A DNA stretch of 64,000 nt from Prescottella equi (GTDB lineage Bacteria > Actinomycetota > Actinomycetes > Mycobacteriales > Mycobacteriaceae). The position numbers and the translations under genes were made by a program. The stretch covers positions 62,001 through 126,000 of the forward strand of contig NZ_LWTX01000004.1 of assembly GCF_002094305.1 (NCBI RefSeq), read 5' to 3'. How positions within the stretch are numbered: the first letter of the stretch is position 1; each line of letters opens with the position of its first letter. Under the pieces are notes generated by a model that saw only the letters and a program-made list of their open reading frames with translations, was not told the origin of the DNA and did no database searches. This document shows, one piece after another, positions 2,524-12,188 of the stretch.

Positions 2524-2784
2524 TCAGTTCGTCAGCGCGCGGTAGCCCTTCGCTCCGGCCCGGTCGACGGCGGCCTTGACGACGGCGAACACGGCGCCCT
2601 GCAGGGCTGCGGCGACGAGGACCTCGCGGTTGGAGCGGGCGAGGTCCTTGGGGTCGGGGGCGTTGTCGTCGTCCCCGACCCGCTTCCAGATCTGGCGGAA
2701 GGCGGCCCCGGCCAGGATGCCGCCGAGCACACCCGTGGCGAGGGACAGCGGCTTGTACAGGGCCTTCGCGGTCATCTTGTTCAT
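2524..2784 (-). CDS. DUF4235 small membrane protein
   Basis: An 86-residue protein starting MNKMTAKALYKPLSLA. It has two hydrophobic stretches (about residues 12-30 and 54-72) separated by a charged loop with the sequence RQIWKRVGDDDNAPDP. This layout matches the actinobacterial DUF4235 family, whose function is unknown. The upstream sequence on the minus strand contains AAGGAGAT just before the ATG, a good ribosome binding site. It converges with rsmB and lies 73 bp downstream of the methyltransferase gene on the same strand, so it may be read with the four-gene module or from its own promoter. The family assignment is from pattern recognition only. Confidence 0.75.
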   Translation of the reverse strand: MNKMTAKALYKPLSLATGVLGGILAGAAFRQIWKRVGDDDNAPDPKDLARSNREVLVAAALQGAVFAVVKAAVDRAGAKGYRALTN

Positions 2785-2857
2785 GATCGAATCTCCTTGT
2801 CGTCGGTGAATCTCGGTCGTGGTGTGCGGTGCGGGGGCGACGCGCGCGGGCGGTGGG

Positions 2858-3469
2858 TCATCCGACCAGCCCTTCGCGGGCGGCGACGGAGGCGGGGTCA
2901 GCGCTCGCCGGTTCGAACGTCTCGATCAGAACGTCCGGGTCGGCGTAGCGCGCTGTGCGGACCAGTCCGGGCCGGGCGGCGAGAGCGTCGTGGACGGCGT
3001 CGCCGGTCTGCGGATAGTCCGGCACCGGGTGCCGCCAGTGCACGGCGACGATCACGCCGTCGTCGGTCAGATGGTCGTCGAGCTCGTCCAGCGTCCGGTG
3101 CAGTGCCTCGGGCGACAGGTAGTATGCGACCTCGCTCAACACCACCAGATCGAACGAGCCGGCCGGCCAGGGATCTCCCAGGGCCCAGCGCCGGAACGTG
3201 ACGGCGGCACCCGCGAGCCGCACCCGCGCGCGTGCCAGGACGTCGTCGACGACGTCGGTTGCGAGTACGTGGTCGCAGCGGCCGGCCAGCACCTCGGTGA
3301 GATTGCCGATGGAACACCCCGGCTCGAACGCCGACCGGAATCGTCTGCGGGGCAGAACCGCGGCGGTGAGGGCGCGCTTGCGTTCCTCGTACCACCGCTC
3401 GTCGAACTCCCAGGGGTCCGGGGACTGCGAGTACATGTCGGCGAAGTAGTCGTCGGAGAGGCGGTTCAC
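2858..3469 (-). CDS. NodS-like class I SAM methyltransferase
   Basis: A 203-residue class I methyltransferase beginning VNRLSDDYFADMYSQSPDPW. SAM motif I is AFEPGCSIGNLT (about 47-58), followed by an acidic turn (ATDVVDD) and motif IV-like FDLVVLSEVAYYLS. The layout is that of the NodS family, whose rhizobial founder N-methylates a deacetylated chitooligosaccharide. The open frame reaches 3796, but that part is an antisense-style arginine-rich shadow of the PIG-L gene. The GTG at 3469 overlaps the upstream TGA (GTGA), exactly as at the other two junctions of this module. It is the last of four coupled genes, so it probably acts on a product made by the glycosyltransferase and PIG-L enzyme. 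The substrate is not known. Confidence 0.85.
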   Translation of the reverse strand: MNRLSDDYFADMYSQSPDPWEFDERWYEERKRALTAAVLPRRRFRSAFEPGCSIGNLTEVLAGRCDHVLATDVVDDVLARARVRLAGAAVTFRRWALGDPWPAGSFDLVVLSEVAYYLSPEALHRTLDELDDHLTDDGVIVAVHWRHPVPDYPQTGDAVHDALAARPGLVRTARYADPDVLIETFEPASADPASVAAREGLVG

Positions 3470-4245
3470 GGGACGAACACCGTCTCGTGGTCGCGCAACA
3501 GCCGGTCGAGCACGTGGCGCGGCAGGATGGCCCGGTCGGCCGGCGCGGGGGAGAGGTCGGTGATCTGAGAGGTGAACTCCGACACCGCGTCCCGCTTGCA
3601 TCGCTGCCGGTGCCGCGGCGGGTGGAAGGTCCGGGCCCGGTGCCACGGCACGGACGGATCGCCGGGGCGCGACCAGTGCCACAACCACACCGGATACTCG
3701 ATCAGCACCGCACCCGAGCGTCGGGCAGCGTCTGCGGCGGCCCGCCCCGCGGCCTCGTGGTCGGGGTGCCCGTCGTGCCGGAACGGCGCGGCGCACCAGG
3801 CGCCGGGCCGCAGGTGTCCGGCGATGGTCGTCGCGAGGTCCGTCTCGTGGTCGGCGACACGACCGTCGGGCAGGCCCAGGGGTGTCGCGGCGGGCAACCC
3901 CAACCGGTCCGCGGCGCGGAGCGATTCGGTCCGCCGCCGCTCGGCGAGCTCGGTGGGAGTCACGGTCGGCGAATCGGGGTGGGAGGCCTCACCGTCGGTG
4001 ACGGACAGTATCGAGACCGGGACGCCGCGGGCCGCGAGTTCCGACGCGAGCGCGCCGACACCGAGGACCTCGTCGTCCGGGTGCGGCGCGACGACGAGCA
4101 AGTCGGGGCAGGTGTGGACCTCGAGGTGAGGGAAGGCGGTGTGCCCGGACCACACCGATTCCGGGGTACCGCCGGATTCGATCGGTTCGGCGGCGAAGCG
4201 TGCGGTGGCGGCACGGGGTGAGCGAGTGTGTGAGTCGGTGGTCAC
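3466..4245 (-). CDS. PIG-L family N-acetylglucosaminyl deacetylase-like protein
   Basis: A zinc-dependent deacetylase of the PIG-L/LmbE family, about 259 residues. The signature APHPDDE (about 53-59) and a second metal motif, HDGHPDHEA, are both intact. Relatives include MshB and Mca of mycothiol metabolism, which remove acetyl or acyl groups from glucosamine conjugates. The start at 4245 (GTG, VTTDSHTRSP) is preferred because it overlaps the TGA of the upstream gene by 4 bp; the longer frame to 4368 is low-complexity read-through. It is the third gene of the minus-strand module and overlaps the methyltransferase start by 4 bp. No signal peptide is seen, so it is likely cytoplasmic. Confidence 0.88.
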   Translation of the reverse strand: MTTDSHTRSPRAATARFAAEPIESGGTPESVWSGHTAFPHLEVHTCPDLLVVAPHPDDEVLGVGALASELAARGVPVSILSVTDGEASHPDSPTVTPTELAERRRTESLRAADRLGLPAATPLGLPDGRVADHETDLATTIAGHLRPGAWCAAPFRHDGHPDHEAAGRAAADAARRSGAVLIEYPVWLWHWSRPGDPSVPWHRARTFHPPRHRQRCKRDAVSEFTSQITDLSPAPADRAILPRHVLDRLLRDHETVFVP

Positions 4246-5189
4246 GGGATGGTCCTTTCCGGGCGAGAGAGGGCGGAGCCCAGATCGGCGAGGTCGTGTT
4301 CGGCATGGCTCTGCCGGAGGTAGACGGTCAGGTCGGCGACCAGTTGCGCATGGCTTCGGTCGCTGCACAGCGGGCCCGCGCCGAGGGCGCGTCCCACCCG
4401 GTCGACGGTCTCCGTCGCGGCCGCCTCGATCACCGCGCGGACGCGGCGCGCGCGGACGTGGGCTGCTCGTCCGTCGGTAGGATCGCGGTCCAATTCCTCC
4501 GCCGCGACGTCCAGCACACAGTGCGCCGCGTACAGCGCGGCATCGACGGCGCCCAGATGGGCGAGCCGGAACGGGTCGTCACCCACGCGCCGTCGGAGCT
4601 CGTCCGCGACCGCTACCGCGCCGCCGTACCAGCAGGCGGCCACGCCGATCGCACCGTGCCAGAAGCCGGGCCGGTCGAGGTACGCGCCGGGCTCACCGAT
4701 CCGGACGGCGGGGGTGCCGGCGAAGTCCACCGCGCCGGAGTCGCTGGCACCCATCCCGACCGCGTGCCACGTGTCGGGCACGGCGGCGCTGCCCGGGCCG
4801 CGCAGGTCCACCGCGAACAGGGCGCGCTCGCTGTCCGTCCGTGCCGTCACCAGTGCGTGCGTGCAGGAGTGAGCGCCGGAGCACCACAGCTTCCTGCCGT
4901 CGAGCACGTATCCGCCGTCGGTCGCGCGCGCCGTCAGCGCAGGCGCCGGCGGTTCGGCGGCCCACACGCCCCACAGTTCTCCGGGCCGCGGTGACGGCCC
5001 GTGCAGTTCCGCCAGGATGGCGACCGCGTCCGCGTGCGCCTCGAGCAGTCGAGCGCCCACCAGGTCTCGCCGGGCCGCGTCCGCCAGTTCGCTCCATCGC
5101 TTTCTCGTCTGGCCGGAGCCGGGGAGGGGCCACCGCGCCGCGTCGTCGGGGGTGACGGTCGGATGCACCGCCGTCGCGCTCGGCGTCAT
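4242..5189 (-). CDS. Acyl-CoA dehydrogenase-like protein, short form
   Basis: A 315-residue protein related to acyl-CoA/acyl-ACP dehydrogenases but shorter than the usual 380 or so residues. Recognisable parts are the mid-domain stretch YVLDGRKLWCSGAHSCTHAL, where flavin-contacting residues normally sit, and a C-terminal helical domain ending with YLRQSHAEHDLADLG. I do not see the classical YEG-type catalytic glutamate motif, so it may not oxidise acyl-CoA. The ATG at 5189 overlaps the glycosyltransferase stop (ATGA), and its own stop overlaps the PIG-L start. Proteins of this kind occur beside PIG-L deacetylases in other bacteria as I recall, but no role is established to my knowledge. Confidence 0.75.
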   Translation of the reverse strand: MTPSATAVHPTVTPDDAARWPLPGSGQTRKRWSELADAARRDLVGARLLEAHADAVAILAELHGPSPRPGELWGVWAAEPPAPALTARATDGGYVLDGRKLWCSGAHSCTHALVTARTDSERALFAVDLRGPGSAAVPDTWHAVGMGASDSGAVDFAGTPAVRIGEPGAYLDRPGFWHGAIGVAACWYGGAVAVADELRRRVGDDPFRLAHLGAVDAALYAAHCVLDVAAEELDRDPTDGRAAHVRARRVRAVIEAAATETVDRVGRALGAGPLCSDRSHAQLVADLTVYLRQSHAEHDLADLGSALSRPERTIP

Positions 5190-5971
5190 CGCTGCTCCAC
5201 GGACAGTGCCGGGCCGACCGGACCCCGACGAGTGGGCGCCGTGGATCCGGGGCGGGCAGCGATGGAGAGAAGGTGATCGCCGAAGCCGCGCGGTGCCCGC
5301 GGGTCACGCCGATCCGACGTCGTGACGACCGTGTGCTCGTCCCAGGCGACGCGATGACCAGCGCTGCCCAGCCGGGTCACGAGGTCGACGTCCTCTCCGG
5401 TTGCCAGCGCCCGGAATCCCCCGACCGCGTGGTAGACGTCCGCGCGGACACCGAGGTTCGCGCCGTGTACGTGGCCGTGGACCGATCCGCGGCGGCGGCG
5501 ATAGCCGTCGTCGTACCGGCGCCGGGTCTCGCCGTCGTGTGCGGCCCAGTCGACGCGCACGGTCCCGGCCATCGCGTCGTGGTCGGCCCAGTAGGTGAGC
5601 TGGTCGACGAACCAGGAGTCCGGGACGACGGAGTCGGCATCGGTGGTCGAGAACCACACGTCGGGGCGGCCGACGAGACCGCTCGCGGCGAAGCCGGCGG
5701 CGCGTGCGGCGCCGACATTGCGCAGACTCAGCTCCACGAGGGTGATCCCGGCGGGCACGACGAGTGCGGTGTCGTCCGTGCAGGCGTCGAGTACGACCGT
5801 GGTGTGCACCGGCACCGGCGAGCGCTGTGCAGCCCTCTGCAGCGCTCGCAGGCAACGGGGAAGAAGCTCGCGTTCGTCGTGGGCCGGCACGACCGTGACG
5901 ATGCATGTCGGCGCGGGTGTCGCGGCGGTGGTGGGACGGATCGCGGCGGGGTGGTTTGCTGTATCGGACAC
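5186..5971 (-). CDS. Family 2 glycosyltransferase, first gene of four-gene module
   Basis: A GT-A fold glycosyltransferase of about 261 residues. VVPAHDERELLPRCL (about 27-41) is the nucleotide-sugar entry motif, TTDADS (109-114) the metal-binding DxD, and ATGEDVDL (190-197) the ED acceptor-site motif. There are no membrane helices, so it is probably cytoplasmic. The frame opens at 6052, and ATGs at 6004 and 6001 are possible. The GTG at 5971 (VSDTANHP) is chosen because AGGAG lies 5 bases upstream (5977-5981), while the other starts have no ribosome binding site. It leads the module with the acyl-CoA-dehydrogenase-like, PIG-L and NodS-like genes. The sugar donor and acceptor cannot be read from sequence. 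Confidence 0.85.
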   Translation of the reverse strand: MSDTANHPAAIRPTTAATPAPTCIVTVVPAHDERELLPRCLRALQRAAQRSPVPVHTTVVLDACTDDTALVVPAGITLVELSLRNVGAARAAGFAASGLVGRPDVWFSTTDADSVVPDSWFVDQLTYWADHDAMAGTVRVDWAAHDGETRRRYDDGYRRRRGSVHGHVHGANLGVRADVYHAVGGFRALATGEDVDLVTRLGSAGHRVAWDEHTVVTTSDRRDPRAPRGFGDHLLSIAARPGSTAPTRRGPVGPALSVEQR

Positions 5972-5976
5972 AGGGA

Positions 5977-6060
5977 CTCCTGTCGCGGCGATGTGCTGCA
6001 TCATCGGGAGATAATCTGTGTCAAACTTTGCATATTTCCCATTTGTCCGCACGACAACGG
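5977..6060 (-). promoter_or_regulatory. AT-rich leader before the four-gene module
   Basis: The gap between the phosphoketolase stop and the glycosyltransferase gene is clearly richer in A+T than its surroundings. It contains a perfect minus-strand TTGACA (6024-6019), but no good -10 hexamer at the right spacing. AGGAG at 5981-5977 is the ribosome binding site that decides the start at 5971. The module probably has its own promoter here rather than relying on read-through from the phosphoketolase gene. Confidence 0.45.
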
Positions 6061-6067
6061 AGCCGAG

Positions 6068-8458
6068 TCACACCGGTTCGGGCCACACCCAGTTCCGGAC
6101 CTCGGGCATGTCCTCGAGATGCTCGCGCACGTAGTCGTGGTGGCGAGCGAGCATGCGCTCGCAGTAGCCGACGAGATCGGCGGCGCCCTCCGGGCTCCGG
6201 CGGCACCGCCGCAGTGCCTCCATCGCCAGGTGATAGCGACTCATGTGGTTGAGAACGACCATGTCGAACGGCGTCGTCGTCGTGCCCTGCTCGGTGTAGC
6301 CGCGGACGTGGAAGCGATCCGGTCGGACCCGACCGTGCAGCAACTGGTGGAAGGCCCGCGCGTAACCGTGCCATGCGACCACGACGTCGACGTCCTCGGT
6401 GAACAGGCGAGCGAAGTCCTCGTGGGAGCGCCCGTGTGGGTGGACGTCGGGTGGGGCCATCGACATCAGGTCGACGACGTTCACCACGCGGACCCGGAGA
6501 TCGGGAACCTGGCCGCGCAGCAGAGCCGCGGCCGCGAGGATCTCCTCGGTCGGCACGTCCCCGACGCACGCCAGCACGATGTCGGGATCGCCGTCGTCCG
6601 CTGCGGGTGCGGAGTTCTCGGTGCCGGCCCAGTCCCACACGGAGGCGCCGGCCCGGACGTGCTCGCGGGCCTGGTCGAGGGTGAGGTACTGCGGATGCGA
6701 CTGCTTGTCGACCACGACCAGATTCACGCAGTCCCGCGTGGCGAACACGTCCTGCGCCACCACCAGGAGCGAGTTGGCGTCCGGCGGCAGATAGACGCGG
6801 GTGACGCCGCCCGACAGCGAGAGCACCGTGTCGATCAGGCCCGGACCCTGGTGCGAGAACCCGTTGTGGTCGTTGCGCCAGCACGTGGAGGTGAGCAGGA
6901 TGTTCAGGCTCGCGACCGGCGCGCGCCAGTCGAGCGACCGGGCCCGCTCGAGCCACTTGGTGTGCTGGATGGTCATGGAAGCACTCACCATCGCGAAGGC
7001 CTCGTACGTCGCGAACAGCCCGTGCCGTCCGGTGAGCAGATAGCCCTCGAGCCAGCCCTGGCACAGGTGCTCCGACAGCACCTCCATCACCCGTCCGTGG
7101 AGCCCGACATGGTCGTCACCCGGGACGACGGTGCCCGCGGAACACCGTTCGGTGACCTCGAACACGGCGCCCAGTCGGTTGCTGTTCGTCTCGTCCGGGC
7201 AGAACAACCGGAAGTCGTCCGGGTTCGCGACGTAGATGTCACGCAGCATCTCACCGAGCGGCCGCGTCGTCTCGTGGTGGACGGCGCCGGGGAACGGCAC
7301 CTCGACGGCGTAGCGATCGGCGGACGGGACCTCGAGTTCGCGCAGGAGCCGACCACCGTTCGCGTGCGGATTCGCCCCCATGCGCAGGTCCCCGCTGGGG
7401 GCGAGCGCGGCGAGTTCCGGTACCAGCCGTCCCTGCGGATCGAACTGTTCGTCGGGTGCGTACGACCGCATCCACTCCTCGAGTCTCCGCAGATGTTCGG
7501 GGTCGTCACGGACGTCGGCGATGGGCACCTGATGGGCGCGGAACGTTCCCTCGATCTCGAGGCCGTCGACGACGTCGGGCCCGGTCCATCCCTTCGGGGT
7601 GCGCAGCACGATCGCGGGCCAGCGGGGCCGATCGGTCAGCCCGGAGTCGCGGGCGTCGCGCCGGATCCGGGTGATGGCGGTGTGCGCGCGGTCGAGGGTT
7701 TCGGCGAGGTCGCGGTGCACCTCCATAGGGTCGTCGCCCGCGACCAGCACCGCGTCCCAGCCGAAGGCCCGCAGCACGGCGAGCACCTCGTCGTCGGTGC
7801 GCCGCCCGAGCACGGTCGGACCGGAGATCTTGTAGCCGTTGAGGTGCAGAATCGGGAGGACGGCGCCGTCCCGACTGGCATCGAGGAAGAACGGCACCTT
7901 CCACGACGCCGCCAGCGGTCCGGTCTCGGCCTCTCCGTCGCCCACGACGCACGCGACCGTGAGGTCCGGGTTGTCCATCGCCGCTCCGGCCGCGTGAGCG
8001 AGGGAGTAACCCAGTTCGCCGCCCTCGTTGATCGAACCCGGCGTCTCCACCCCGGAGTGGCTCGGGATACCACCGGGTGTGGAGAACTGGCGCGCGAGGC
8101 GCCGCAGACCGGCCTCGTCCGGCGTGACGTCCGGGAACAACTCGGAGTACGTGCCCTCGAGGTACGTGTTCGCGACCACGGCGGGACCGCCGTGCCCGGG
8201 GCCGGCGACGAACAGCACATCGGCTCCGGTGCGCCGGATCAGCCGGTTGAGGTGGACGTAGACGAGCGACAGACCGGGGCTGGTACCCCAGTGGCCGAGC
8301 AGGCGTGGCTTGATGTCCGGCGGAACGAGTGGCCTGCGCAGCAGGACGTTGTCGCGCAGGTAGATCTGGGCGACCGTCAGGTAGTTCGCGGCCATCCAGT
8401 ACCGGTGGAGCAGGCGGAGTTCGTCGTCGGTGTGGTGGTCGTCCGAGCCCGGTGTCAT
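6068..8458 (-). CDS. xfp: Phosphoketolase (xylulose-5-P/fructose-6-P)
   Basis: A thiamine-diphosphate enzyme of about 796 residues, the usual family length. It cleaves xylulose-5-phosphate or fructose-6-phosphate with phosphate to acetyl phosphate plus a triose or tetrose phosphate. The signatures SHSGVETPGSINEGGELG and EGYLLTGRHGLFATYEAF are intact, as is VGDGEAETGP of the cofactor site. The open frame extends to 9031, but the start at 8458 (MTPGSDDHHTDDEL) has GGAGGG (8472-8467 on the minus strand) at good spacing. It is divergent from the alcohol dehydrogenase gene. With the GH65 phosphorylase nearby, it suggests a route from stored or imported disaccharide to acetyl phosphate that bypasses ATP use. 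Confidence 0.95.
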   Translation of the reverse strand: MTPGSDDHHTDDELRLLHRYWMAANYLTVAQIYLRDNVLLRRPLVPPDIKPRLLGHWGTSPGLSLVYVHLNRLIRRTGADVLFVAGPGHGGPAVVANTYLEGTYSELFPDVTPDEAGLRRLARQFSTPGGIPSHSGVETPGSINEGGELGYSLAHAAGAAMDNPDLTVACVVGDGEAETGPLAASWKVPFFLDASRDGAVLPILHLNGYKISGPTVLGRRTDDEVLAVLRAFGWDAVLVAGDDPMEVHRDLAETLDRAHTAITRIRRDARDSGLTDRPRWPAIVLRTPKGWTGPDVVDGLEIEGTFRAHQVPIADVRDDPEHLRRLEEWMRSYAPDEQFDPQGRLVPELAALAPSGDLRMGANPHANGGRLLRELEVPSADRYAVEVPFPGAVHHETTRPLGEMLRDIYVANPDDFRLFCPDETNSNRLGAVFEVTERCSAGTVVPGDDHVGLHGRVMEVLSEHLCQGWLEGYLLTGRHGLFATYEAFAMVSASMTIQHTKWLERARSLDWRAPVASLNILLTSTCWRNDHNGFSHQGPGLIDTVLSLSGGVTRVYLPPDANSLLVVAQDVFATRDCVNLVVVDKQSHPQYLTLDQAREHVRAGASVWDWAGTENSAPAADDGDPDIVLACVGDVPTEEILAAAALLRGQVPDLRVRVVNVVDLMSMAPPDVHPHGRSHEDFARLFTEDVDVVVAWHGYARAFHQLLHGRVRPDRFHVRGYTEQGTTTTPFDMVVLNHMSRYHLAMEALRRCRRSPEGAADLVGYCERMLARHHDYVREHLEDMPEVRNWVWPEPV

Positions 8459-8528
8459 CGAATGCACCCTCCGTTCGCGGGCGAAGGTGATTCCATCCTG
8501 ACCGCTCGCCCCGGCCCCCGCAGGGGAA

Positions 8529-8542
8529 CGGGCCTCGGCCCG
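8529..8542. repeat. 14-bp palindrome in the phosphoketolase/ADH intergenic region
   Basis: CGGGCC and GGCCCG are separated by TC in the 279-bp region between two divergent genes. It is a plausible operator or small hairpin, but GC-rich palindromes are common by chance in this genome. The rest of 8459-8737 shows only the phosphoketolase ribosome binding site and no clear promoter for the alcohol dehydrogenase. Confidence 0.3.
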
Positions 8543-8737
8543 ACCGGTTCCTCCGTTCCCCCTCGTCGTTCCCCCCTTGTTGCGGACGCGCGGAACCAGG
8601 CATCCTGGTAGTGGCGACCGCGGCACCGTCCGGCGATGCCGTGTTCCGGTTCCGCCGGCGCCTTCGCGACGAAGTACGGATCTTGTATGCGGACGGACAA
8701 CTCGCGCACCTCGGCAACCACGATGCCGGCCACCACC

Positions 8738-9739
8738 ATGCGGGCCTGGCGCACGACGAGACCCGGCCCGCTCACCGACCGTCCGCTCGAGCTCGGGCGC
8801 GAGTTGCTTCCGCGTCCGACGAGCAGGGACCTGCTGGTGAAGGTGCTGGCGTGTGGTGTCTGCCGCACCGACCTCCACGTGGTCGCGGGCGAATTGCCGC
8901 CGCACCGGCTCAACGTGGTGCCGGGCCACGAGGTGATCGGCGAGGTCGTCGCGGTCGGTGACGACGCGGGTGGCCGCTTCTCGGTGGGGCAGCGGGTGGG
9001 CGTGGCGTGGCTGCGGGGCACGTGCGGGCACTGCCGGTACTGCGTGCGCGGCGACGAGAACCTGTGCCCCTATTCGACGTACACCGGCTGGGACGCGGAC
9101 GGCGGCTACGCCGAGTACACGACGGTGCCGGTCGACTACGCGCTCGAACTGCCCACCGGCTATCCCGTCGTCGAGCTGGCACCCCTGCTCTGCGCGGGCA
9201 TCATCGGTTATCGCGCGTTGCTGCGGGCGGATCTACCCGAGGGCGGTCGGCTGGGGATCTACGGCTTCGGGGGCAGTGCGCACCTGACCGCGCAGGTCGC
9301 GCTTGCCCGGGGAGCGCGCGTGCACGTGATGACGCGGGGCGAGGAGGCCCGTCAACTGGCGTTCAGTCTCGGCGCGGCTTCCGTGCAGGGTGCCGCGGAG
9401 CCGCCCCCGGAACCGTTGGACTCGGCGATCCTCTTCGCGCCTGCCGGTGACCTGGTCCCGCCGGCGCTGGAGGCGCTCGACGCGGGTGGGACGCTCGCGC
9501 TCGCGGGCATCCACCTCAGCGACATCCCGCCGTTGAACTATCAGCGGGACCTGTTCCGGGAGCGGCAACTGCGGAGCGTGACGGCGAACACACGGGACGA
9601 TGCCCGCGACTTCCTGGCCTTCGCGCAACGGCACCGACTGCGGGTCAGCGCGCACCGCTACCCGTTGGATGCCGCGGACAAGGCGCTCGCCGATCTCGCG
9701 GGCGGTGTGTTCGGCGGCGCCGCCGTTCTCGTGCCGTGA
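8738..9739 (+). CDS. Zinc-dependent alcohol dehydrogenase, MDR superfamily
   Basis: A medium-chain dehydrogenase of about 333 residues. [12 protein letters not shown] carries the catalytic zinc cysteine, PGHEVIGEV the histidine and glutamate, and [15 protein letters not shown] the four structural-zinc cysteines. The nucleotide-binding turn is YGFGGSAHL. The layout resembles AdhA-type enzymes that interconvert alcohols and aldehydes. The frame opens at 8636. [10 protein letters not shown] at 8738 best fits the family N-terminus, but it has no clear ribosome binding site, and ATGs at 8723 or 8689 are possible. It lies beside phosphoketolase (divergent) and GH65 (same strand), so a role in redox balance during carbohydrate use is plausible but inferred. 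Confidence 0.88.
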
Positions 9740-9766
9740 CGACGACGCTGTCCTAGCGTGGACTGA

Positions 9767-9788
9767 GCGGTCCGATCGCGTGGACCGC
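9767..9788. repeat. Inverted repeat between ADH and GH65 genes
   Basis: GCGGTCC and GGACCGC form a 7-bp inverted repeat with an 8-base spacer, 28 bases after the alcohol dehydrogenase stop and 24 before the GH65 start. It could be a weak terminator or an operator. No T-tract follows. Confidence 0.3.
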
Positions 9789-9812
9789 GCCCGCGAGTGG
9801 GAGGACGTCCGC

Positions 9813-12188
9813 ATGATCACTCATCCCGCTTTCACGGTCGAACCGTGGAGCCTGCGCGCCACGAGCCTCGATCTGGACGTCCTGGCCCAGAGCGAATCGT
9901 TGTTCGCGCTCTCCAACGGGCACCTCGGCTGGCGCGGCAACCTCGACGAGGGCGATCCGCACGGGCTGCCCGGCAGCTACCTGTCCGGTGTGTACGAGGT
10001 GCGGCCGATGCCGTACGCCGAACCGGGATACGGGTACCCCGATTCCGGCGAGACGATCATCAACGTCACCGACGGCAAGATCGTCCGCCTGCTCGTCGAC
10101 GACGAGCCGTTCGACGTCCGCCGCGGCCGGGTACTGGCGCACGAGCAGGAACTGGATCTGCGGGCCGGGGTACTGCGCCGCAAGGTCGAGTGGCGTTCGC
10201 CTGCCGGTCGCGCGGTGCGCCTCACCACCACCCGGCTGGTGTCGTTCACCCAACGCACCATCGGGGCGATCGACTACACGGTGGAGGCGCTGGACGGACC
10301 GGCGCACGTGGTACTCCAGTCGGAACTCGTGGCGAACGAACCGATGCCGCAACAGGAGGCAGATCCGCGTGCGGCGGCGGTACTCGCGGAGCCGCTGGTC
10401 GCGGAGGAGCACTTCGACCACGAGGCGCTTGTGCAACTGACCCACACGACCGCCGAGAGTGGTCTGCGGATCGCCGTCGCGATGGATCACGAGGTGACCG
10501 GACCGGGCGTGCACGTCGAGGTCGAGAGCTATCCGGATCAGGGGCGGGTGACGATCACGTCGGAGCTGGCGCGGGGCGAACGCGTCCGCATGGTCAAGTT
10601 CGTCTCGCACGCGTGGTCGGCACGGCGCACCCCGCCCGCGATGCGGGACCAGGTGGCGGGCGAGTTGACGCTCGCGCGTGAGAGCGGCTGGGACGGACTG
10701 GTTTCGGAGCAGCGCGCCTATCTCGACAGGTTCTGGGCGCACGCGGACGTGACTGTGGACGGCGATCCGGAGGTCCAGCAGGCGGTGCGTTTCGCGCTGT
10801 TCCACATCCTGCAGGCGTCGGCCCGCGCCGAGGGCACCGCGATCGCCTCGAAGGGGCTCACCGGACGCGGCTACGACGGTCACGCCTTCTGGGACACCGA
10901 GATGTTCGTGCTGCCGGTCCTGACGTCGGTGCTGCCGCAGGCCGTCGCCGATGCGCTGGGCTGGCGGCATTCGACACTTCCGCGGGCGCGGGAGCGGGCC
11001 CGCCAACTGGGGTTCGCCGGTGCCGCGTTCCCGTGGCGGACCATCACCGGCAAGGAGTGCAGCGGCTACTGGCCCGCGGGCGCCGCCGCGTTCCACGTCA
11101 ACGCGGCGATCGCGCGCGCGGCGATCGGATACATCCGCGCGAACGGGAACGGCGAGTTCGAGCGGACCGTCGGCCTGGATCTGCTGGTGGAGACCGCGCG
11201 GCTGTGGCGGTCGCTCGGTTACTTCGACGAGCGGGGCACGTTCCGGATCGACGGCGTCACCGGCCCCGACGAGTACAGCGCGCTGGTGCGGAACGACCTG
11301 TACACCAACTTGATGGCGCGCGAGAACCTCGATGCCGCGGTGGCCGTCGTGGAGCGTCACCGGTATCGGATGCCCGACCTCGGGGTCACCGACGAGGAGG
11401 TCGGTGGTTGGCGTACCGCTGCGGCGCGGATGTACGTGCCGTACGACGAGCGGCGCGGCGTGCACCCGCAATCGTCCGGATTCACCGATCGGCAGGTATG
11501 GGACTTCGTGGGGACGCCGCCCGAGCACTACCCGCTGCTGCTGCACTACCCGTACTTCGATCTGTATCGCAAGCAGGTCGTGAAGCAGGCGGACGTGGTG
11601 CTGGCGATGCAGTGGGTTCCGGACGAGTTCACCGAGGAGCAGCGAGCGCGGAACTTCGCGTACTACGAGCGGCTCACGGTGCGGGACTCGTCACTGTCCG
11701 CGTGCAGCCAGGCCGTGGTCGCCGCCGACGTCGGTGCCCTCGATCTCGCGTACGACTATCTCGGGGAGACGGCCCTGATCGACCTGTACGACCTCGAGCA
11801 CAACACCAGCGACGGACTGCACCTCGCGTCGCTGGCCGGGATCTGGATCGCGCTCGTCCAGGGGTTCGGCGGTGCACGCCGGCGCCGTACCGGTCTCACG
11901 TTCCGGCCGACGCTCCCGCGCGGCATCGAGCGCCTCGCGTTCGGTGTCGCGGCGGCGGGATGTCGGCTGCGCGTCCAGATCGAGCCCACCGAGACGAGGT
12001 ACCACCTCGTGGTCGGCGACGAGTTGACGGTCCACCACGACGGGGAGCCGGTGACCTTGCACGGCAACGAGGTTCGGGTGATGCCCACGGTCCGGCCGCC
12101 GGCCGGTCCGGTGGTGACGCAACCCGCGGGCCGGGCTCCGGTCCGACGTCGGCCCGGCACCGGCGGTCGCCCGTCACCCGCCGACTAA
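9813..12188 (+). CDS. Glycoside hydrolase family 65 disaccharide phosphorylase
   Basis: A GH65 protein of about 791 residues, full length for the family. GH65 enzymes split alpha-linked glucosides such as trehalose, maltose or kojibiose with phosphate, yielding beta-glucose-1-phosphate, though some are hydrolases. Visible marks are the N-terminal sandwich stretch [15 protein letters not shown], the barrel motif [13 protein letters not shown] and [15 protein letters not shown], which holds the general-acid glutamate. The start at 9813 follows GGGAGG (9799-9804). The frame extends upstream to 9600 only as a shadow of the dehydrogenase. Substrate cannot be decided; trehalose would suit a trehalose-rich actinobacterium. 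No beta-phosphoglucomutase gene is adjacent, which leaves the phosphorylase reading open. Confidence 0.9.

Follow-up and report, generated by a model that had tools for sequence, protein, structure and literature searches.

In Nod-factor tailoring, NodC, NodB and NodS carry out GT2 sugar transfer, N-deacetylation and N-methylation, NodB being a member of the polysaccharide deacetylase family. Sugar transfer followed by the action of a PIG-L deacetylase is found in the mycothiol and bacillithiol pathways (MshA/MshB, BshA/BshB), whose transferases MshA and BshA are of the GT4 and not of the GT2 type. The present analysis concerns four coupled genes of Prescottella equi that recall both systems. 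They lie in a stretch of 64,000 nt (assembly GCF_002094305.1, NZ_LWTX01000004.1 positions 62,001 to 126,000), called the window below. On balance, these genes are probably a single operon whose product would be a small metabolite linked to stress, most likely an amino-glycoside that is N-methylated and perhaps also oxidised. The four genes and their junctions in the window are:

5186..5971, minus strand: GT2 glycosyltransferase (GT), first gene of the operon, 261 amino acids; PF13641 and PF00535 above cut-off
4242..5189, minus strand: acyl-CoA-dehydrogenase (ACAD)-like flavoprotein, 315 amino acids; PF02770 only
3466..4245, minus strand: PIG-L (LmbE) family deacetylase, 259 amino acids; PF02585, 6.3e-26
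2858..3469, minus strand: NodS-like S-adenosylmethionine-dependent methyltransferase (MT), 203 amino acids; PF05401 above cut-off
5186..5189, minus strand: ATGA stop/start overlap, GT/ACAD-like, read from the sequence
4242..4245, minus strand: GTGA stop/start overlap, ACAD-like/PIG-L, read from the sequence
3466..3469, minus strand: GTGA stop/start overlap, PIG-L/MT, read from the sequence

The first-pass annotation of this DNA had described four minus-strand genes joined by 4-bp overlaps; all four open reading frames (ORFs) are open and the three junctions are as it claimed. The set resembles Nod-factor tailoring in its predicted GT2 sugar transfer, N-deacetylation and N-methylation, its MT being a relative of NodS, and a Rubrobacter relative of the set carries a polysaccharide deacetylase. 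It differs from that system in having no NodA acyltransferase, a PIG-L protein in the place of NodB, an additional flavoprotein and a context of stress genes. The likeness to mycothiol and bacillithiol synthesis is that a PIG-L deacetylase would act after sugar transfer; here, however, the transferase is a GT2 enzyme, a cysteine ligase is missing, the PIG-L protein scores far under the MshB and BshB cut-offs and a genuine MshB is encoded elsewhere. The same four gene names occur in Acinetobacter baumannii ACICU_02432-02435 (PMC5660220), an operon that figures in a transcript table and on a gene map where no function is proposed for it (PMC5660220, PMC6240043). These two papers are the only ones found in open-access PMC full text to mention the four genes, and no paper there was found to assign a function to the set, in line with the earlier opinion that no described pathway has exactly these genes; subscription journals lie outside that search and the spelling “PIG-L” never matched in it, so that papers using it may be missed. 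The enzyme families and their logic are known, while their combination and setting seem undescribed.

Conservation, fusions and swaps within the gene set

The species-genome collection, scanned with PIG-L as bait, gave 518 confirmed loci, the best 80 of which were analysed. All four genes are present in 66 of these 80 loci, among them L007 of Rhodococcus erythropolis NBRC 15567; the remaining 14 are without one to three of them, and L042, L043, L049 and L081 of these lie at contig ends. The gene order of the 66 full loci is GT, ACAD, PIG-L, MT in 30, ACAD, PIG-L, MT, GT in 33, and the latter order with GT reversed in 3 (an inverted GT at the operon end was seen in L068, L072 and L077, all from Pseudomonas). 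The order differs again in the distant members L100-L102, content being kept and order not. Overlaps of 4 bp are more frequent across the full loci than expected by chance. They are found at 54 of the 65 scored junctions between PIG-L and MT, at 24 of 66 between ACAD and PIG-L (with an overlap of another length in 33 more, such lengths being approximate because the script chose gene starts from profile alignments), at 14 of 33 between MT and GT and at 12 of 29 between GT and ACAD.

The ACAD-like profile served as a second bait, to avoid a bias towards PIG-L. The genus of the window has an ACAD-like protein in 4 of 14 genomes (own included), all four with the full set. In Actinomycetota it is present in 9 of 198 genomes (own included), of which seven hold the full set (PIG-L and MT being fused in one), while the other two have ACAD with PIG-L and ACAD with MT and GT, respectively. 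It was found in 18 of 299 genomes of Pseudomonadota, 12 of them with the full set when matches of at least 90 bits in the fetched stretch are counted and G211 is counted via its locus L061; L117, one of these full sets, has its GT about 2 kb away on the opposite strand. Among the other Pseudomonadota, four have three genes (one also with a weak PIG-L match beside them) and two have ACAD and MT, with a PIG-L relative at a distance of about 12 kb in G356 and on a different contig in G369. The ACAD-like protein is present in 134 of 248 sampled Mycobacterium genomes. The 40 mycobacterial loci fetched consist of 27 full sets, 8 with ACAD alone (L131, L142, L143, L148, L154, L155, L156, L160), 2 with ACAD and PIG-L, 2 with GT and ACAD, and 1 with GT, ACAD and PIG-L. 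Rare co-occurrence, which the first-pass annotation had named as the result that would speak against it, is thus not what was found (full sets in 66/80, 7/9, 12/18 and 27/40). The set is widespread; the four-gene order that the same annotation wished to follow from genome to genome shuffles among loci. Pairwise distances among the four proteins correlate at 0.49-0.76 over 37 loci, values that are not corrected for species kinship.

PIG-L and MT are found in one frame in three genomes, namely G098 (L099), G606 (L164) and G546 (L165, L166). The L099 protein, PIG-L followed by a NodS-type MT, is sited between ACAD and GT. The mycobacterial genomes G606 and G546 carry three similar fusions, GT following directly in two, and have a GT and ACAD pair at a separate place (L161, L153). 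On a Rubrobacter plasmid the gene for a polysaccharide deacetylase (PF01522) lies beside genes for an ACAD-like protein, a NodS-type MT, a flavin adenine dinucleotide (FAD) oxidoreductase and a GT2 enzyme, and PIG-L kin was not found in its 12.6-kb stretch. In Gloeothece a single protein of 1158 residues is composed of GT2, NodS-type MT and polysaccharide deacetylase domains. The occurrence of two deacetylase families in the same place argues that N-deacetylation and methylation would be steps of one route. The set kept in shuffled orders, the PIG-L-MT fusions and the deacetylase swap in Rubrobacter together point to one pathway, as the first-pass annotation had supposed. All four kinds of gene are also present in D. 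gobiensis, with GT on the opposite strand; D. radiodurans has ACAD, PIG-L and MT, a GT relative not being found in the stretch.

Individual loci show further particularities. A second PIG-L gene lies just 3' of the operon in L064, L065, L104 and L105. A GT relative at about 12180-12900 of L087, a plasmid of Pandoraea vervacti, is matched in two frames with none annotated, as if interrupted, and has one frame in the sister plasmid L092. In L164 (5647-10649) the PIG-L-MT fusion is followed by GT2 and more glycosyltransferase-looking ORFs, which may form a sister cluster for a larger glycoside.

Features of the four proteins

The proteins were compared with relatives in an alignment of 38 rows and with Pfam, NCBIfam and PDB profiles. 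The DAD, GGF and ED motifs of GT are invariant and HGANLG is almost so; MftF and other GT2 enzymes are among its weak matches. Residues H55, P56, D57, D58, E59, D158, H160, D162 and H163 of PIG-L are invariant in 38/38 rows, HPDDE and DxHxDH being intact. In PIG-L/LmbE deacetylases HPDDE and HxDH provide the metal and catalytic residues; together with a score of 91.8 bits against PF02585 they identify the protein as a family member. Its nearest solved relatives are diacetylchitobiose deacetylases and TT1542. The best curated models are BshB1 and BshB2, both far under cut-off (59 bits against 182.5 for BshB1, TIGR04001), and the MshB model TIGR03445 gives 19.3 bits against a cut-off of 224.35, the genuine MshB encoded elsewhere in the same genome scoring 459 bits. 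On these scores and the separate MshB a place in mycothiol or bacillithiol synthesis was rejected, in agreement with the remark in the first-pass annotation that the mycothiol partners are missing.

MT belongs to the NodS-like family PF05401 (46.5 bits, gathering score 24) and reaches 55.9 bits with the NodS equivalog NF041650, whose cut-off is 300. Its solved relatives are 4isc (4.4e-70), named only as a methyltransferase, then NodS 3ofj (2.5e-26), which is the best one bearing a named function. The “Nod-factor logic” seen at first pass has a basis in this relationship. Membership of a Nod-factor system was rejected, since MT falls under the NodS cut-off and the partners nodA, nodB and nodC are not among the neighbours scanned, namely xfp, alcohol dehydrogenase (ADH), GH65, DUF4235, rsmB-like and fmt-like genes. 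The highest hydropathy over 19 residues does not exceed 1.43 in any of the four window proteins (1.30 in GT), indicating no clear membrane helix. A defence system was rejected as well (PADLOC gives a single match, mad2, to MT), as was a phage origin (PHROGs matches PIG-L and MT once each and neither GT nor ACAD).

In the ACAD-like protein Pfam detects the middle domain PF02770 alone; the N- and C-terminal ACAD domains were not found, so that the three-domain organization of ACADs is not recognised. Its best NCBIfam models, SfnB, DszC, p-hydroxyphenylacetate hydroxylase and HsaA, are of flavin monooxygenase type and all far under cut-off. The earlier label of a short acyl-CoA-dehydrogenase-like protein consequently holds for the middle domain and not for the curated models that score best. 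The top PDB matches are 5gj7/5z8t (acyl-CoA dehydrogenase type 2 domain protein), DszC entries and methanesulfinate monooxygenase, followed by cyclohexanecarboxyl-CoA dehydrogenase, an ACAD, two FAD-dependent oxidoreductases (4kcf/3m9v, which we take to be KijD3) and another ACAD-type entry; further matches are Rv3094c, a hydroxylase, DnmZ, CarC and nitrososynthase. The list thus mixes monooxygenases, amino-sugar oxygenases and ACADs. KijD3/DnmZ-type enzymes oxidise at nitrogen. The ACAD-like protein has these ACAD-fold flavin oxygenases (DszC, methanesulfinate monooxygenase, KijD3, DnmZ, nitrososynthase) among its solved matches, but alignment offsets make it about 50-70 residues shorter than the solved matches before the middle domain, and the operon does not encode a flavin reductase. 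Q293 and H295 are invariant in the 38 rows, and in a low-confidence alignment the QSHA stretch stands opposite QHHA of an HsaA-like protein from the same genome. ACADs carry a catalytic glutamate in a C-terminal loop; in the corresponding base region an invariant acidic residue was not seen against an ACAD of the same genome (L003), again in a low-confidence alignment. The protein may, tentatively, be a flavin monooxygenase-type (group D) member. Note that the Deinococcus ACAD-like proteins have about 780 residues (L167 1675-4014; L168 2893-5241), of which about 420 at the amino terminus match no Pfam family at E 1e-4.

Neighbouring stress genes, promoters and expression

The set is flanked by otsA and otsB on two Comamonas plasmids (C. 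endophytica, C. antarctica; otsA, ACAD, PIG-L, MT, GT, otsB). In Acinetobacter ursingii the four genes follow those for a catalase and an iron-containing redox enzyme and precede otsA/otsB. GlgE, maltokinase and catalase are neighbours in Cupriavidus, where the PIG-L gene stands apart, and CsbD is near two Pandoraea copies. Records of Methylobacterium and Kitasatospora are without such stress neighbours, the latter having ferritin-like and spore photoproduct lyase genes. In the 80-locus set, LigD, catalase, topoisomerase IB, a sigma factor, ADH and a CBM48 enzyme figure among the representative neighbours, as do ABC transporters, EAL/GAF regulators and other families. Of the 117 ORFs that flank the Pseudomonadota loci, 5 match alpha-amylase, 2 catalase, 2 OtsA and 2 OtsB; the 86 of Actinomycetota give 1 catalase match and 0 OtsA among the 25 families listed. 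Within 12 kb of ACAD in the 30 ACAD-baited genomes, where observed counts were read off by hand and G211 was also in the first locus set, OtsA occurs 3 times (0.14 expected), catalase 5 times (0.36) and LigD 3 times (0.24); one or more of the three are present in 10 of the 30. The catalase beside the ACAD-like gene of G109 is matched as two adjoining pieces (L096, about 4490-5650), as if interrupted.

Upstream of the operon, 12 of 28 GT-first mycobacterial loci have GTTTA-N13-16-KGGMA at -52 to -54, against 0.08 expected from the same loci, and 8 of 28 have a second form, GTGT(G)AAA-N11-15-GGCTA, at -43 to -50 (0.04 expected), positions being counted from the profile start. A loose GKKT-N14-18-GGSNA is found in 24 of 28 (1.4 expected) and the pattern tried first, GKKT-N14-17-GGGWW, in 10 of 28 (1.2 expected). 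The GTTTA, GTGT and loose patterns were refined afterwards on the same sequences, from related genomes, which makes the figures descriptive. The sites are called SigF-like because they resemble sites printed in PMC4694148. Over 30 GT-first loci, the window included, GTTT-N13-19-GGGW lies within 250 bases in 7 (1.0 expected), two of them far upstream. An AlgU-type pattern was not convincing (2 of 23 proteobacterial loci, 0.2 expected, both similar Pseudomonas and about 200 bases upstream).

Published RNA-seq data from Acinetobacter show the module co-expressed with genes for trehalose synthesis and catalase (PMC5660220). There A. baumannii ACICU_02432 (glycosyltransferase), 02433 (SAM methyltransferase), 02434 (LmbE) and 02435 (ACAD-related) bear the mark of a single operon, and their transcripts drop 31-62-fold in two colistin-dependent mutants; the same mutants have otsA/otsB down 12-50-fold and catalase 22-31-fold (PMC5660220). 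An A. baumannii record has relatives of ACAD, PIG-L, MT and GT in a row, and names and order suggest that the ACICU tags designate these genes. A like gene set adjoins blsA on a gene map (PMC6240043). The GT2 gene MSMEG_1097 shows lowered expression in a sigF mutant of M. smegmatis (PMC4694148) and appears in a spray-drying microarray table (PMC5445863) and in a zinc study (PMC7174638); its identity with the operon GT is not settled and it is not used as evidence. Stress control outside Acinetobacter is suggested by the promoters, in mycobacteria, and by the gene neighbourhoods.

The window and 2 of 3 congeners carry TT(T/C)GACACAGATTATCTCCCG before GT instead of a SigF-type site. Two further features border the operon:

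6005..6025, minus strand: TTTGACACAGATTATCTCCCG, 5' of GT, candidate promoter or operator; block also in 2/3 congeners
2524..2784, minus strand: DUF4235 gene, directly 3' of the operon; PF14019, 6.5e-28

The first block is identical in L093, has one change in L006/L094 and is absent in L095. A Pfam scan of the neighbours identified xfp (phosphoketolase) upstream of the operon on the same strand and beyond it, on the plus strand, a zinc ADH and a GH65 enzyme (6068-12188 holds all three); the 3' side has the DUF4235 gene, then RsmB- and formyltransferase-type genes. The xfp, GH65 and DUF4235 genes flank the operon also in the three congener genomes looked at (DUF4235 by tblastn in L006, L093, L094, L095). 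Within 2524-2861 (minus strand), which also holds the DUF4235 gene, an ORF of 26 codons between MT and DUF4235 overlaps each side by 4 bp and is not evidently conserved in congeners.

Proposed route and rival explanations

In the proposed route the GT2 enzyme would attach an N-acetylhexosamine to a small acceptor and PIG-L, whose catalytic residues are intact, would remove the acetyl group. The NodS-like MT would then methylate the freed amine; family chemistry suggests both reactions and the PIG-L-MT fusions back the methylation. In the weakest step, the flavoprotein might oxidise the product, possibly at nitrogen. All four enzymes would thereby act on one small glycoside, which could protect against drying, osmotic or oxidative stress.

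Several observations weigh against this scheme. The spread of the ACAD-like gene is patchy (4/14 congeners, 9/198 Actinomycetota, 18/299 Pseudomonadota) and sets are incomplete in 14/80, 2/9, 6/18 and 13/40 of the stretches examined. On a Paraburkholderia plasmid MT and GT occur with neither ACAD nor PIG-L kin close by, and a catalase-family gene lies 2.3 kb beyond them. Within 12 kb of the copy in the window there is neither OtsA nor catalase nor LigD, its genome being outside the 10/30, and GT is not preceded by a SigF-type GTTT-N13-19-GGGW that would place the operon in a SigF regulon; the strict GTTT-N14-17-GGGT occurs in just 1 of the 28 mycobacterial loci (0.18 expected). Neighbour families and promoter patterns were picked after some loci had been viewed, and related genomes inflate the counts. 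The Acinetobacter drop comes from colistin-dependent mutants and not from an experiment on stress (PMC5660220). The monooxygenase assignment draws on weak sequence matches that include ACADs.

Other points bear on the place of the flavoprotein. The eight mycobacterial genomes with ACAD alone show, at E 1e-15, no MT kin and PIG-L kin once, weakly, and ACAD kin was not found in the 12-kb stretches of the fusion loci L164 and L166, which have PIG-L-MT and GT; the Gloeothece protein likewise unites GT, MT and deacetylase with no ACAD domain. The flavoprotein may hence also work apart. That it has no part in the glycoside route, GT, PIG-L and MT making the sugar while it fulfils a separate, co-regulated task, is unlikely, as ACAD is kept in the main gene orders and has MT or PIG-L as a neighbour even in deep branches (L100-L102, Rubrobacter, Deinococcus). 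We consider it quite unlikely that the set decorates a surface glycolipid or polysaccharide, with the GT2 enzyme using an acceptor that is lipid-linked or part of the envelope, and the other three tailoring the sugar head group. Such a role would account for the additional glycosyltransferases beside some relatives (a Sphingobium plasmid and, as read from sequence, the ORFs after the L164 fusion) and for the UDP-galactopyranose mutase alongside the set in D. gobiensis; on the other side, flippase, ligase, polymerase and acyltransferase are not among the conserved four and the window proteins have no clear membrane helix. The Acinetobacter operon does fall in mutants with defective lipid A, but this looks like a regulon shift because trehalose and catalase genes are included (PMC5660220). 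A thiol-like low-molecular-weight redox buffer, its coupling enzyme being encoded elsewhere, would fit the mycothiol/bacillithiol logic of sugar transfer plus PIG-L, the BshB1/BshB2 models as best, though far under cut-off, curated matches and the neighbouring catalases. It is nonetheless highly improbable given the absence of a cysteine ligase from the set, a transferase of GT2 and not GT4 type, the low MshB and BshB1 scores beside a genuine MshB elsewhere in the genome, and an N-methylase that would hinder coupling at the amine.

The N-methylated amino-glycoside stays the preferred product. A bolder version of it is rather unlikely: the set would make a hitherto undescribed, horizontally spread stress metabolite, N-methylated and flavin-oxidised, such as a sugar hydroxylamine or nitrone serving as osmoprotectant or radical trap, produced during drying and oxidation by soil, plant-associated, mycobacterial, Acinetobacter and Deinococcus-group bacteria, with Nod-factor-like chemistry outside symbiosis. 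The four genes are kept together across Actinomycetota and Pseudomonadota and in a Deinococcus plasmid, are plasmid-borne in places and often lie near trehalose, catalase or DNA-repair genes. This shared occurrence and the stress neighbours point to a common stress metabolite, seemingly not yet named. Since the enzymes come from families with testable chemistry, the product could be named experimentally. If the proposed route is correct, sugar transfer, N-deacetylation and NodS-type N-methylation would be in use outside symbiosis.

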